Shown here: one piece after another, positions 43,685 through 57,866 of the stretch
How positions within the stretch are numbered: position 1 is the first letter of the stretch
How the letters are laid out: the number at the start of each line of letters is the position of its first letter
Source: Thalassococcus sp. S3
Lineage (GTDB): Bacteria; Pseudomonadota; Alphaproteobacteria; Rhodobacterales; Rhodobacteraceae
Direction: 5' to 3'
Assembly (NCBI RefSeq): GCF_004216475.1
Contig: NZ_CP022303.1
Span: 372,001 to 436,000 of the forward strand
Length of the DNA stretch: 64,000 nucleotides
Made by a program: the position numbers and the translations under genes
The notes under the pieces: model-generated
Told to the model about the DNA's origin: nothing
Database searches by the model: none
Seen by the model: the letters and a program-made list of their open reading frames with translations, nothing else

Positions 43685-45088
43685 TCAGGCGCTGAGTGCG
43701 GCAAGCTGCGGCCTGGGCCGGGCGATTGCCGCTGCGGCCTTTGGATGCCGGATAAAAATGACTGCGGGGTTGGCGATGTCGTTCTGCTCCATCTCCCGGC
43801 TCAACGTGCCGAGAGTACAGTGCAGGATCTTTTCTCCCTTTTGGCTCGCTTGAGAGACGACATCCACCTCAAGCGTTCCAGGCAGACCTTTGGACAAAAG
43901 CTCTGCCTGTATGCGGGGGGCGGCGGCCACGGCCATGTAAAGCGCCAGTGTCGTTCCGGGTCTCAGCGTCTCGGCAAAGAGAGGGGCAGCGTCTCCGTCC
44001 CGGCAGGTGCCGGTGGCGAAGGTCACCCGTTCGATGGCACCCCGCTCGCTTAGCGACCTGCCGAGCGTGGCGGCGCTGGCACTTGCAGCGGTCACGCCGG
44101 GTACGATTTCAACGGGTATGCCGTTGGCGCGTGCAGCGGCCAGTTCCTCTTCCGCGCGGCCAAAGAGCATGGGGTCGCCGCTTTTCAGCCGCACGACATT
44201 CTGGCCGGAGCGCGCGGCGGCCACGATAACGGCGTCAATCTTCTCTTGCGGCCATTTGCAGGCGCCGACGGCCTTGCCGACATAAATGCGTTCCGCATCG
44301 CGGCGGGCGAGTTCCAGCACCTCGGGATCGACTAGGCGGTCGTAAAAGATCACGTCGGCCTCCTGCAGGCGCTTGACCGCACGCAGGGTCAGCAGATCGG
44401 CCGCACCCGGCCCGGCACCGATCAGGCAGATGGAGCCTTGGGGTGTTACGTCCGGCGCTCCTCCGCCAGCGATCGCTGCCTTCAGCAGCGCCGCGGCGTC
44501 CCGTTCTGCCCCCTGAGCGTGCAGCTTGCGCGGCTGATCTGAAAATGCCCACCGCCAGAAGGCCCGCCGCTGGGCGCGGGGGACAGAGCGGGCCACGGCG
44601 CCGCGCATCCGACCGGCCAAAGCGGCGAAACCGCCGAGTTGCGGCTCCAGCAAGGTCTCCATCCGGCTTTTGATCTGACGCGCGAGGACGGGTGCCGTGC
44701 CCTCGGTCCCGATGGCCACGACGACCGGGTCCCTGTCCACGATGGAGGGGGTGATGGCCGAGCAAAGGTCGGGTTGGTCGACGACATTCACGACCGCTCC
44801 GGCGGCTTCGGCCAGCCCATGCAGGGCGGCGGCGGAGCCTGGGCAGCCGGTGGCGATGAAGGCCAGGGCGGCGCCCTTGAAGGTTGCGGCGGTGACCGGA
44901 TCCTTGTGCCATGTAATCCGGCCCCGCGCCGCGAGGTCGTGTAATTCGTCGTCCAGCTCGGGCCAGCAGACGGTGATCCGTGCTTCGGTCTTGAGCATCA
45001 GGCGGCATTTCTGCGCGGCCTGCTCCCCGCCGCCCACGATGATCACGGGGCGGTCAGCGACGCGCAGGAACATGGGAAAGGTCTTCAT
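43685..45088 (-). CDS. cysG: siroheme synthase CysG
   Basis: 467-residue trifunctional enzyme: SAM-uroporphyrinogen III methyltransferase, precorrin-2 dehydrogenase and ferrochelatase. The N-terminal NAD-binding half has PVIIVGGGEQAAQKCRLM and VATGTEGTAPVLARQIKSR-type sequence (AIGTEGTAPVLARQI). The C-terminal methyltransferase has LIGAGPGAADLLTLRAVKRL, RLKSGDPMLFGRAEEE and ATGTCRDG. As the last gene of the nitrate operon it supplies siroheme for NirB. Confidence 0.95.
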   Translation of the reverse strand: MKTFPMFLRVADRPVIIVGGGEQAAQKCRLMLKTEARITVCWPELDDELHDLAARGRITWHKDPVTAATFKGAALAFIATGCPGSAAALHGLAEAAGAVVNVVDQPDLCSAITPSIVDRDPVVVAIGTEGTAPVLARQIKSRMETLLEPQLGGFAALAGRMRGAVARSVPRAQRRAFWRWAFSDQPRKLHAQGAERDAAALLKAAIAGGGAPDVTPQGSICLIGAGPGAADLLTLRAVKRLQEADVIFYDRLVDPEVLELARRDAERIYVGKAVGACKWPQEKIDAVIVAAARSGQNVVRLKSGDPMLFGRAEEELAAARANGIPVEIVPGVTAASASAATLGRSLSERGAIERVTFATGTCRDGDAAPLFAETLRPGTTLALYMAVAAAPRIQAELLSKGLPGTLEVDVVSQASQKGEKILHCTLGTLSREMEQNDIANPAVIFIRHPKAAAAIARPRPQLAALSA

Positions 45089-54305: not shown

Positions 54306-55673
54306 TCAGCCTTGCACTTCGTTGCCGACGACGCGCTGGTCGCCTTTCAGGCCAATCGGCAGGCTTTCGAGATAGGCGTTGGGCTGACGACCATCGTAGG
54401 GAATGCCGTCGATGATATCCTCAGCCGGCGTTGCCGCTTTGTAGCCGTCGCTGTCCCATGGGAAATCGGCCTCATCGGCCAACCCTTCATCAACAAGCAT
54501 CCGTGCCGCTTCGAGGTAGATTTCTGGTTTGTAGACGGATTTGGCCACTTCGTCATACCAGCTGTCGGGCTTGGCTTCGGAAATCTGACCCCAGCGGCGC
54601 ATCTGGGTGAGGTACCAGACGGCGTCCGAGTAGAAGGGATAAGTCGCATTGTAGCGGAAGAACACGTTGAAGTCCGGGATTTCCCGCTTGTCGCCTTTCT
54701 CGAATTCGAAAAAGCCGGTCATGGAATTCGCGATCACGTCGTAATCGGCGCCGACATATTCCGAGCGGCTGAGGATCTCCACCGCCTCGGGCCGGTTGGC
54801 GTTGTCGTTTTCATCGAGCCAGATCGCCGCGCGGATCAGGGCCTTGGTCAGGGCCAGGGTGGTCTGTGGGTTCTCTTCGGTGAATTCCTTGGTCAGGCCG
54901 AAGACCTTCTCGGGGTTGTTCTTCCACATCTGGTAGTCGGTGATGACCGGGACGCCGATACCCTTGAAGACGGCCTGCTGGTTCCATGGCTCACCCACGG
55001 CATAGCCATAGATCGTACCGGCTTCCATCGTGGCGGGCATTTGCGGTGGCGGCGTCACCGACAGCAGCACGTCGGCGGCGATCTGGCCGCTCACGTTTTC
55101 GGGGCTGTAGTAACCGGGCTCGATCCCGCCTGCGGCCAGCCAGTAGCGAATTTCGTAATTGTGCGTGGAAACTGGGAAGACCATGCCCATGTTGAAGGGC
55201 TTGCCCTCATCGGCATAGGCCTCGACCACCGGCTTGAGCGCCGAGGCAGAGATGGGATGTTGCGGGCGACCGTCATCCATCGAGGGGATGTTAGGGCGCA
55301 TCTGCTCCCAAATTTCGTTGGAGACGGTGATGCCGTTTCCGTTGAGATCCATCGAGAAGGGCGTGACGATATGCGCCTCGGTGCCGTAACCGATCGTGGC
55401 CGCCAAAGGCTGGCCGGCCAGCATGTGGGCGCCGTCAAGCTGGCCATCGATCACCCGGTCGAGCAGCACCTTCCAGTTCGCCTGGGGCTCGAGCGTGACG
55501 AAGAGGCCTTCATCTTCAAAATATCCGTTCTCGTATGCGATGGCGAGAGGGGCCATGTCGGTGAGCTTGATGAAGCCGAAGGTGAGTTCGTCTTTTTCCA
55601 CGTCCAGCATTTCAGCAAAGGCCGGCGCCGTTAGAGCGGTGCTGGCCAGGATGGCAAAGAGTGCGCGTTTCAT
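54306..55673 (-). CDS. nrtA: nitrate ABC transporter substrate-binding protein
   Basis: 455-residue periplasmic or membrane-associated nitrate-binding protein of the NrtA/CmpA family. It has a clear Sec signal ([20 protein letters not shown]), then the family regions [21 protein letters not shown] and [20 protein letters not shown], with [20 protein letters not shown]. First gene of the nrt-nir-nas operon. AAGGA lies eight bases before the ATG. Expression is probably controlled by the upstream antitermination leader. Confidence 0.96.
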
Positions 55674-55693: not shown

Positions 55694-55714
55694 GCCCCAG
55701 GGAGGAGATGGGGC
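55694..55714 (-). repeat. short hairpin just before nrtA
   Basis: GCCCC and GGGGC (five bp) enclose 11 bases, 21-41 bases before the nrtA start. It sits downstream of the leader terminator and may affect translation or be incidental. Confidence 0.3.
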
Positions 55715-55715
55715 G

Positions 55716-55778
55716 AAAAACAAAAAAGCTGCCGATCCGTCGTGTGCGGGAGGAGCACATCAACAGGTCAAGCAGCTT
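55716..55778 (-). terminator. leader terminator of the nrt-nir-nas operon
   Basis: On the minus strand AAGCTGC (55778-55772) pairs with GCAGCTT (55732-55726), with an inner hairpin TGTGC/GCACA, and is followed by T6-G-T5 ending at 55716. It lies between the ANTAR-type hairpin and nrtA, the position expected for an attenuator that NasT must overcome. Confidence 0.75.
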
Positions 55779-55788
55779 CGCTTCAGGT

Positions 55789-55803
55789 CCCAAATCGCTG
55801 GGG
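55789..55803 (-). ncRNA. candidate P2 hairpin of the ANTAR target
   Basis: On the minus strand CCCC and GGG enclose AGCGATTT. AGCGAT (55799-55794) carries A1 and G4 like the P1 loop AACGAT. The closing pairs are imperfect: an A-T closing pair would shift the loop register to GCGATT. It lies eight bases after P1 and just before the terminator arm. Confidence 0.45.
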
Positions 55804-55811
55804 TAAATCGG

Positions 55812-55838
55812 TTCAAACGACATCGTTGTCTGTTTGAA
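55812..55838 (-). ncRNA. P1 hairpin of the ANTAR antiterminator target
   Basis: On the minus strand TTCAAAC and GTTTGAA form a seven-bp stem, then a one-base bulge, then GAC/GTC closing the hexaloop AACGAT with A1 and G4. This is the loop signature recognised by ANTAR proteins such as NasT. It starts at about the predicted transcript end. Confidence 0.75.
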
Positions 55839-55845
55839 TAATGTC

Positions 55846-55874
55846 ATAATCGCGAAAGGCAGGCGCCCGATCAA
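55846..55874 (-). promoter_or_regulatory. candidate promoter of the nrt-nir-nas operon
   Basis: TTGATC (55874-55869) and GATTAT (55851-55846) are spaced by 17 bases on the minus strand, each four of six to consensus. Transcription would begin at about 55840, so P1 would be near the 5' end of the RNA. Confidence 0.45.
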
Positions 55875-55944: not shown

Positions 55945-57126
55945 TCATCGCTGCAGCGCAGAAAGATCAAAGACTGCGCCATCAAAAAACCGGTCTGGCC
56001 GCAGAATCAGTGTGCCGGAGGCCGATGCGATCTCGCGCGGGGTGTCGAGCGCGCCTTCTACTTTCTCGGACGCGCCGGGTAAATCGACATGCAGGGCCGA
56101 CAGCGCGTTGCGGTAGAGATCGGTGCGAAAAACCTGGTGCGCGGCGGCAAGAGACATGTCCCGGTCGAGCCCGGTCCGGGCAGCCAGGCGCTGTGCGATC
56201 CATTGCGCCTGGCTGCGCCATGGGAATGTCGCAGCCCCTTCATGAAAGGCCACGAAGCTGTCGCGTTGCCGCTGGTCGCCACGCGGGGAGATAACGAAAT
56301 GCCCGCTGAGAGCGCGATCGAGAATCTCGGCCGTCACGCCCAGATAATGTGGCTGGCTTAGGATCTCTGATGCGGTGGCCCGATTGGCCGGTTGCGAGAG
56401 CCACCGTCCCGCGCGCCAGAGCGTGCGGATCAGCTTGCCGGTCAAAACGGGCTGGGTTCCGGCCCAGTCATGGCGCACGGCGAGCACCTTTTCGGGCGCG
56501 AAGGACCAGATCGCGGAGCCGGGCAAAAGCAACTCTCCCACGCCGTTCTCCACGGCGATGGACCCCCACGGCTCACCCACGCAAAAGGCATCCACCTCTC
56601 CGGCTGCGATGGCATCTGCCATGAGGGGCGGCGGCACCGTGCGCACGTCGAGCGATTGCGGCGCGGGCACACCCAGCGCGCCCAGCCAGTAATAGAGCAG
56701 TTCGGCATGCATCGAGAACGGGAAGGGCACCCCGATGCGCAATTGCCCGTCGACGGCTTTCATCAGCGCCTCGCCCGCGGCGCGCGGGTCACTGAAGTCG
56801 AACGCGTAACCGCCCGCGCGCATGCGGTCCGCCAGTGCGCGCGAGACGCAGACGACATTACCGTTCACCGACAGCACCGACAGCGCATCCAGCCGGGTGG
56901 CGTTACCACCGAGCCCAAGCGCAGTGGCGACCGGCACCGGAGAAAGCATATGTGCGGCCTCGATCTGGCCCAGTGCGACCATGTCACGGAGCGTGGACCA
57001 GGACGGCGCTTTGCGAAGATCGAGGGCGAGCCCCTCTTCTTCGGCGAATCCGATCTCATGCGCGACGATCAGCGGGGCGGCATCGACCAGCGGGATGAAA
57101 CCCGCGCGCAGCAGGTGCAGGTTCAT
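55945..57126 (-). CDS. nasS: nitrate sensor NasS
   Basis: 393-residue NrtA-like protein without a signal peptide, so it stays in the cytosol. It shares AGFIPLVDAAPLIVAHEIGF, AAHMLSPVPVATALGLGG and DAFCVGEPWGSIAVENGVGE with nitrate-binding proteins. In the NasS-NasT system NasS binds nitrate or nitrite and releases NasT, which is otherwise held inactive. It overlaps nasT by four bases and lies upstream of the leader. Confidence 0.94.
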   Translation of the reverse strand: MNLHLLRAGFIPLVDAAPLIVAHEIGFAEEEGLALDLRKAPSWSTLRDMVALGQIEAAHMLSPVPVATALGLGGNATRLDALSVLSVNGNVVCVSRALADRMRAGGYAFDFSDPRAAGEALMKAVDGQLRIGVPFPFSMHAELLYYWLGALGVPAPQSLDVRTVPPPLMADAIAAGEVDAFCVGEPWGSIAVENGVGELLLPGSAIWSFAPEKVLAVRHDWAGTQPVLTGKLIRTLWRAGRWLSQPANRATASEILSQPHYLGVTAEILDRALSGHFVISPRGDQRQRDSFVAFHEGAATFPWRSQAQWIAQRLAARTGLDRDMSLAAAHQVFRTDLYRNALSALHVDLPGASEKVEGALDTPREIASASGTLILRPDRFFDGAVFDLSALQR

Positions 57127-57707
57127 GACAAAAGCCCCGCTGCGGTGACGAGCGATTCCGCGACATCGGCTACTTTGCGGCCCTGATCCATCGCAGTCTT
57201 GCGCAGGAGGGCATAGGCCTCGTCTTCCTCGATCCCACGGGCTTTCATCAAGATACCCTTGGCGCGGTCGATCACCTTGCGTTCCTGAAGGGCCTTTTTG
57301 GTCGCCTCCAATTCAGCGCGCATTTGCTGGAACATGTGGAAGCGCGCGATGGCGGCGTCGATGATCGGCTTGATCCGCTCCGGACGCAGGCCATCGACGA
57401 CGTAAGCGGAAACACCTGCCTCGATCGCGGCTTTGGTCAGGCCGTCCTCACTTTGATCGACGAACATGGCAACGGGACGTTCCAGAGGACTGGACGCGAG
57501 GGTCAATTCCTCAAGCATGTCGCGCGAGGGGCTGGCGACATCCATCAGAACGATGTCCGGGTTCCGTTCGCTGATCCGGCGGGCCAGGCCGGCCTCTTCC
57601 GAGATCACGAACACGTCGTGATTGCCCGAGGTGCGCAGACTGTCGATGATCAGAAGCGCGCGATCCCGATCCTTTTCGACGACGACGATAGAGAGGTTGT
57701 CCGACAT
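57123..57707 (-). CDS. nasT: ANTAR-domain antiterminator NasT
   Basis: 194-residue RNA-binding regulator. Residues 1-120 form a pseudo-receiver (VVVEKDRDRALLIIDSLR; D56 in IVLMDVASP), and residues 131-190 form the ANTAR three-helix domain with RKVIDRAKGILMKARGIEED. Released NasT would bind the leader hairpins and prevent termination before nrtA. The ATG at 57707 begins at the receiver domain; a TTG at 57746 is in frame. It overlaps nasS and no other promoter is evident between them. Confidence 0.95.
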   Translation of the reverse strand: MSDNLSIVVVEKDRDRALLIIDSLRTSGNHDVFVISEEAGLARRISERNPDIVLMDVASPSRDMLEELTLASSPLERPVAMFVDQSEDGLTKAAIEAGVSAYVVDGLRPERIKPIIDAAIARFHMFQQMRAELEATKKALQERKVIDRAKGILMKARGIEEDEAYALLRKTAMDQGRKVADVAESLVTAAGLLS

Positions 57708-57866
57708 ATCGTGGACGACAGACGCCGCGGCGCTTGGAGGCTTCAAGGGCCCATGCGCGTATCCTCGCTGGCAAGGACGACGCGCTTAATCATTGTGCGT
57801 GCCATTGCTTGGTTGCATGGAAATTGTGCGCGTTTGGGAGATGTGCGCATCCAGTCCCCAGGGGTG

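Follow-up and report, generated by a model that had tools for sequence, protein, structure and literature searches.

In the window (the whole 64,000-nucleotide stretch of Thalassococcus sp. S3 DNA analysed here), 271 bases of the minus strand run from nasS to nrtA, and the question raised by this leader is whether it controls the nitrate/nitrite assimilation genes behind it and, if so, how hairpins that depart from the published pattern could do so. The published ANTAR target consists of two hexaloops at a limited distance, with A at loop position 1 (A1) and G at position 4 (G4), while in the family that includes the window's leader the two stand roughly twice as far apart, with a third hairpin between them, and in a few natural leaders, that of the window's genome included, A1 is changed and G4 kept. 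We consider it very probable that the leader is a cis-acting NasS-NasT antitermination leader of the nitrate/nitrite assimilation operon, a kind known from Paracoccus nasA. This agrees with an earlier first-pass annotation of the same DNA, and is supported by the gene context, an intact ANTAR protein, the first hairpin (P1), the terminator, and the occurrence of the element in 146 of 394 family genomes. Against it we count the G at position 1 (G1) of the second recognition hairpin (P2), a 28-nt linker, a middle hairpin that is opened in a longer fold, and a weak promoter match. The mechanism itself is known, and the two departures from the textbook motif are the three tandem hairpins and the G1 in P2.

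Gene context and the region upstream of the hairpins

On the minus strand, an open reading frame at 57123..57746, with a likely ATG start inside, encodes NasT, a REC-like and ANTAR RNA-binding protein (Pfam ANTAR, E 1.6e-22), and its stop is overlapped by 4 bases by the start of nasS (55945..57126, minus strand), whose NrtA-like product (Pfam NMT1_2, E 4.2e-64) is the probable nitrate/nitrite sensor. Pfam domains and gene positions agree with the first-pass placement of both genes just upstream of the leader, and the nasT-then-nasS order recurs in named relatives by locus comparison. This is the makeup of a NasS-NasT system, i.e., an ANTAR protein without a nitrate-sensing domain adjoining an NrtA-like protein. 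The first gene 3′ of the leader is nrtA (54306..55673, minus strand), encoding an NMT1_2 protein, and it is followed on the same strand by nrtB, nrtC, nirB, nirD, nitrate reductase, and then a cysG-like siroheme synthase gene (43727..45088, minus strand; 59% identity to the CysG of locus L261, discussed below).

NasT is the only protein in the whole genome that matches Pfam ANTAR at E 0.001 or better. Aligned with EutV (residue numbers are chain numbers less 2, to match PMC8934654), it keeps R142, K143, K149, E160, Y164, R168, and M172, and differs at four residues (K147 to R, N173 to D, R175 to G, and R177 to K). In EutV, R142, K149, E160, and Y164 contact G4 and Met172 is the plug (PMC8934654).

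Upstream of P1, a promoter with 17-base spacing had been proposed. Its letters and spacing are there by direct reading, as a sigma70-like candidate TTGATC-N17-GATTAT (55846..55874, minus strand; −35-like TTGATC at 55874-55869 and −10-like GATTAT at 55851-55846), and its place is similar in relatives, but the match is weak (8 of 12 consensus letters) and a promoter scan returned 0 promoter-like sites, leaving this pair unreported. Among the 67 aligned family leaders described below, the −10 hexamer of the best promoter-like pair starts 17-25 nt 5′ of the P1 loop in 42, the window included, a count made without a shuffled control. Transcription would start just 5′ of P1. Just upstream of the candidate, after nasS, the sequence GCGACCTTGGTCGC (55895-55882, minus strand) can form a short hairpin with a T-rich run behind it, perhaps the nasTS terminator. 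Palindromes of the form TGC-N4-6-GCA occur upstream in 38 of the 67 leaders, at scattered places with no consistent site, and were set aside. By eye, several leaders outside the family (L114-L123) seem to have sigma54-like TGGCAC-N5-TTGC promoters before P1, in contrast to the sigma70-like candidate of the window.

Recognition hairpins, terminator, and conservation

Named nasT loci were taken from the best 80 of 586 matches, with nasS and, where present, nrtA located in each, so that 81 leaders (80 relatives and the window) were compared. The leader search required both A1 and G4 of P1, together with a P2 hairpin closed by C-G and having G4. Sixty-nine of the 81 fitted, two of which were mis-placed and dropped, and the remaining 67 were aligned. 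The 12 that did not fit were L044 (start mis-set, with a later model match), L055, L085, and L096 (stretch without a full leader, or none found), L097, and seven Paracoccus-type leaders, L052 being the sole one of the eight Paracoccus-type leaders that fitted. A covariance model (R1) was built from the 67 rows, the window among them, and 80 further short stretches together with the earlier loci gave 183 matches, or 171 distinct sequences; these are sequence matches to R1, with the following gene mostly unchecked in the unnamed ones, and a few precede cysG. Because the rows were chosen for A1 in P1, G4 in P1, and G4 in P2, those three conservation figures lean towards conservation, while A1 in P2 was not a selection criterion.

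The covariance search across family leaders that had been suggested as a check recovered the whole element, with R1 matches in 146 of 394 family genomes. In its own genome the window's leader is the one clear match (E 4.1e-11; next match E 0.04), and four weaker ones (E 0.04-0.52) were taken as background; its P1-to-P2 element scores 48.1 bits, being itself one of the 67 rows of R1. Taken together, the three helices have more paired cells, more cells changed on both sides, and a higher covariation score than any of 500 shuffles, with P1 carrying most of the covariation.

P1 (55812..55838, minus strand) reads GAC-AACGAT-GTC plus an outer stem, i.e., a stem of at least 3 bp closing a hexaloop (55827-55822) with both A1 and G4. 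Six of its seven pairs change on both sides among the 67 leaders, and its loop keeps A1 in 168 and G4 in all 171 distinct matches, so that reading, covariation, and loop conservation bear out the hairpin as first annotated. The P2 loop shows the same figures (A1 in 168 and G4 in all 171).

P2 (AAGC-GAAGCT-GCTT, 55770..55783, minus strand) was missed in the first pass. It sits inside the 5′ arm of the terminator, 20 nt 3′ of a hairpin containing the letters AGCGAT, and occupies the homologous place in both the alignment and R1. It has a stem of at least 3 bp, a hexaloop, and G4, with G in place of A at position 1 (55779). The linker between P1 and P2 (55811-55784) holds the third hairpin and, at 28 nt, lies outside the 2-25 nt used to curate actinobacterial ANTAR RNAs (PMC8164766); 163 of the 171 matches have linkers longer than 25 nt (contiguous stems counted), and searches that demand 2-25 nt could miss NasT leaders of this family.

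The intrinsic terminator (55716..55778, minus strand) pairs AAGCTGC (55778-55772) with GCAGCTT (55732-55726) and carries a T6-G-T5 tract (55727-55716), as first annotated and as confirmed by reading and stepwise folds. When the RNA was folded stepwise, P1, the middle hairpin, and P2 coexisted at ends 55770 to 55740, a long-range fold appeared at end 55730 with P2 still kept, and at ends 55722 and 55716 the terminator took the place of P2, with P1 and the middle hairpin intact. Up to the T tract, P2 alone competes with the terminator in these folds, and the folds and the shared bases together make the two mutually exclusive. In 56 of the 67 leaders, pairing is possible between the 3′ half of P2 and the arm adjoining the T tract. 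A longer stretch of the leader (55695-55845) folds at z −5.96, with 0 of 200 shuffles as good, and in this fold the middle hairpin is opened, its CCCCAG pairing with CUGGGG 3′ of the T tract. Beyond the tract lies a GCCCC...GGGGC hairpin (55694..55714, minus strand; −10.7 kcal/mol).

These parts, their conservation, and the exclusion of P2 by the terminator were computed directly, and onto them the following order of events would be transferred from known systems. Without nitrate, NasS would hold NasT, the terminator would form, and RNA polymerase would stop at the T tract. With nitrate, freed NasT would load on P1 and hold P2 folded, and since P2 and the terminator share 55778-55770, holding P2 would prevent termination. 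Read-through would then allow transcription of nrtABC, nirBD, nitrate reductase, and probably cysG. In Paracoccus denitrificans, nitrate dissociates the NasS-NasT complex and NasT binds the nasA leader (PMC3795266), and the nas genes are nitrate-induced (PMC3795266, PMC5424462). By analogy, nitrate-dependent dissociation may also operate in the window's system.

The middle hairpin and the altered P2 loop

Between P1 and P2, the window has a hairpin CCC-AGCGATTT-GGG (55789..55802, minus strand), the site of the second loop AGCGAT of the first-pass annotation. The letters are there (55799-55794), and the eight-base loop offered as one option is apt, but there is no closed hexaloop: the C that precedes these letters faces U, the hairpin closes only as an 8-nt loop, and in RNAfold its stem extends to CCCAG-CGAU-UUGGG. 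Of the 171 matches, 149 show CCC-(5 to 9 nt)-GGG in the linker that joins P1 and P2. Among 35 leaders with a seven-base middle loop, the P1-to-middle spacing is 25-30 in 34 and 23 in one, and the middle-to-P2 spacing is 20-22 in 30 (typically about 28 and 20-21 nt, respectively). The middle stem is nearly invariant, and covariation therefore supports it weakly: in the same 35 leaders, the three outer pairs gave P 0.052, 0.048, and 0.99, and the inner pairs 1-7 and 2-6 gave P 0.005 and 0.80. Folded alone, the linkers are mildly below shuffles in energy (mean z −1.0, n = 171), with 14 lower than all 60 shuffles.

For the middle hairpin two roles seem most likely: it would either offer NasT a binding site partway between P1 and P2, or form a compact bridge so that these two do not lie too far apart to work together. 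That it is a mere structural spacer, which shortens the path from P1 to P2 and is never touched by NasT, is a realistic possibility, if short of probable. In four leaders (L235, L243, L245, and L250), the middle stem is kept with other letters and with a loop that is not ANTAR-like, and the CCC-GGG loops of the family are mostly of 7 or 8 bases (92 and 39, together 131 of 149), both as a spacer would allow. A NasT-binding role is favored instead by loop position 4, which is G in 80 of the 92 seven-base loops (elsewhere in these loops G makes up 1-21%) and in 109 of 149 overall, and by a C-A-A-N-G start common to P1, the middle hairpin, and P2 (in the middle hairpin C 59, A 38, A 46, and G 57 of the 67 aligned leaders). 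Closed ANNGNN hexaloops with at least 4 bp occur in only 22 of the 171 linkers, which counts against the reading, versus 3.1 expected from letter shuffling (maximum of 50 rounds, 8). Hexaloops with other letters also occur (A..A 17, G..G 14), and among the 22, L059 and L088 at least have their hexaloop in a hairpin other than CCC-GGG.

Further evidence against an untouched spacer comes from Paracoccus-type leaders, where the middle hexaloop is ANNGNN in seven of eight (counting the first of two hairpins as the middle one in L048 and L092), the exception, L072, reading GATGAT, and from L097, which has an ANNGNN hairpin at the middle place. Three tandem G4 hexaloop hairpins were found in six of these eight leaders, and two in L048 and L092. 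The hairpin of L097 (Roseovarius azorensis) has 7 bp and lies 20 nt before P2; no ANNGNN P1 was found in this leader at the usual distance.

Leaders outside the family bear on the same question from both sides. A scan for two ANNGNN hairpins, the second overlapped by a terminator, covered the surroundings of NasT at 53 loci (L277 and 52 from other families) and gave any such pair in 15. Short-linker leaders with two hairpins spaced 19-27 are L283, L294, L295, L297, L300, and L306; L122 and L123 have a spacing of 18, with the overlapping terminator unconfirmed, and L304, L311, and L130 have three canonical hairpins. Ten pairs have long linkers (24-39 nt), five of which failed the terminator test or lie on stretches that ended before it. 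Four of the ten fold better than nearly all shuffles (as low in 2, 5, 6, and 12 of 200 for L118, L121, L309, and L124, respectively), as expected if a long linker has to be compacted. Any such need is countered by L127, L131, L135, and L292, where no hairpin stands out and the linker folds no better than chance, and by L305 and L307, which are not significant (34 and 40 of 200). A hairpin in every long linker outside the family was considered as a rule and rejected, since the shuffle control bore it out in only these 4 of 10; the bridging hairpin, common within the family, is thus no rule elsewhere. In L016, a hairpin pair 36 nt apart has an unstructured linker.

If the middle hairpin is a NasT site, the protein might pass in a three-step relay from P1 to the middle hairpin to P2, with G4 as the sole fixed recognition letter; A1 would constrain folding and could give way to G, more often where the sixth letter is U, as in the window's P2. 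We put this forward tentatively, as a possibility rather than an expectation. With steps of about 28 and then 20-21 nt, neither would depart far from the 18-27 nt found in dual leaders, although together they span twice the distance. In EutV, antitermination was abolished by a linker 20 nt longer (PMC8934654), a point against antitermination by the window's leader. The family bears on two points left open in that 2022 structure paper, namely the successive handover of a dimer between hairpins, and whether A1 serves contact or loop folding.

On the second of these points, all six A1 exceptions across the P1 and P2 loops of the 171 matches are A to G. Four of these six loops have U at position 6, versus 46 with U6 among all 342 loops (Fisher P 0.0035, uncorrected for kinship). 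P2 with G1 occurs in 3 of the 171, i.e., the window (GAAGCU), L089 (GAAGCC), and L184 (GAGGCC). The usual P2 in the 67-leader alignment is mostly GAGC-AAAGCC-GCTC, and the P2 loop of Marinibacterium (L032), the closest by NasT (84%) among the best 80 of 586 loci, is AAAGCT. In the eut system, induction fell when A1 was mutated in either loop (PMC3369931), while in the EutV-RNA structure A1 contacts nothing specifically and its proposed role is to keep the loop from pairing across, with G4 stacking on Tyr164 (PMC8934654). A fixed G4 with an occasional change of A1 to G fits this structural view.

It is unlikely that G1 has left the window with a weak or broken switch and an operon that is poorly induced or otherwise regulated. 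The rarity of G1 in P2 would suit such a defect, as would the ability of G1 to pair with U6, which in the window's P2 makes RNAfold give a tetraloop, and the poor T tract of L089. However, the other parts of the window's leader are intact, L184 has G1 together with a full T tract, and a G likewise opens the loop of the last hairpin in the Paracoccus leaders L057 (GACGAT), L080 (GAAGAT), and L072 (GATGAG), while in P. denitrificans nas is nitrate-induced and NasT binds (PMC3795266, PMC5424462). The lack of a specific A1 contact in the EutV structure (PMC8934654) argues in the same direction, and the G1 loop of the window's P2 probably still works.

Two further readings survive poorly. Motifs like CTCCTCCC are known from Rhodobacteraceae small RNAs, and this stretch is present in the terminator loop (55755-55748, minus strand) and again in the hairpin after the T tract (55707-55700, minus strand). 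The terminated leader might then act mainly as a small RNA, with attenuation secondary, which we regard as very improbable: besides the two stretches, it has in its favor a sub-threshold match to Rfam ar14 near the leader (18.8 bits versus a gathering score of 58.8, E 0.2; the Rfam scan of the window gave no match above threshold), and against it that CTCCTCC is found in the terminator region of only 20 of the 67 leaders. Hardly credible, finally, is the first-pass view of the AGCGAT hairpin as P2 itself in a variant shape, since, for all its A at 1, its G at 4, and its place after P1, it coexists with the terminator in stepwise folds, and alignment and model put P2 20 nt downstream in a hairpin that overlaps the terminator and aligns with P2 of 66 other leaders (themselves chosen for a P2-like hairpin), making AGCGAT part of a separate conserved middle hairpin.

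Known systems and second copies of the element

Nitrate-responsive ANTAR antitermination is also known from the Klebsiella nasF leader with NasR, a one-component sensor, where two hairpins are described. The preferred reading of the window, as a NasS-NasT antitermination leader, is closest to the Paracoccus denitrificans nasA leader (L057), which shares the order nasT-nasS-leader, the ANTAR regulator, and G1 in the last hairpin, and in which a leader hairpin is needed for nitrate induction (PMC3795266, PMC5424462). It differs in that the transporter gene nasA follows the leader and in that the middle hairpin is an ANNGNN hexaloop; a pattern search of the L057 stretch found no T tract. The published description has two hairpins, HI and HII, 46 nt apart (PMC3795266, PMC5424462), and their mapping onto hairpins of the window's type is uncertain, with P1 and P2 starting 49 nt apart and the middle hairpin starting near the stated place of HI (134 versus 137 bp).

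The Enterococcus faecalis eutP leader likewise has hexaloop hairpins, a P2 exclusive with the terminator, and a regulator with most of the same ANTAR contact residues (PMC3369931, PMC8934654). It has two hairpins, their loops separated by 24 nt (A29 and A53), versus three over 48 nt in the window, A1 in both loops, unlike the window's P2, and a regulator, EutV, that is activated by phosphorylation, whereas NasT is activated by release from NasS. EutX RNA carries one further hexaloop in addition to the dual motif (PMC8934654), and the nosR leader of Bradyrhizobium diazoefficiens is subject to NasT antitermination likewise, with other target genes (PMC6759348). A three-hairpin NasT leader is not named in the titles and abstract openings listed for ANTAR and NasT hairpin leaders in the open-licence literature.

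The element is not confined to nrtA. Among eight further loci, three (L256, L258, and L261; genomes G276, G259, and G446) have a second copy just upstream of a siroheme-synthesis gene, which is CysG by NCBIfam in L261, a uroporphyrinogen-III C-methyltransferase match in L256, and CysG-like by translation only in L258; the middle hairpin is not evident in L261. The gene after the element in the other five is nrtA in L257, L259, and L262, and unclear in L260 and L263. Siroheme is the cofactor of NirB, and the element thus follows the pathway.
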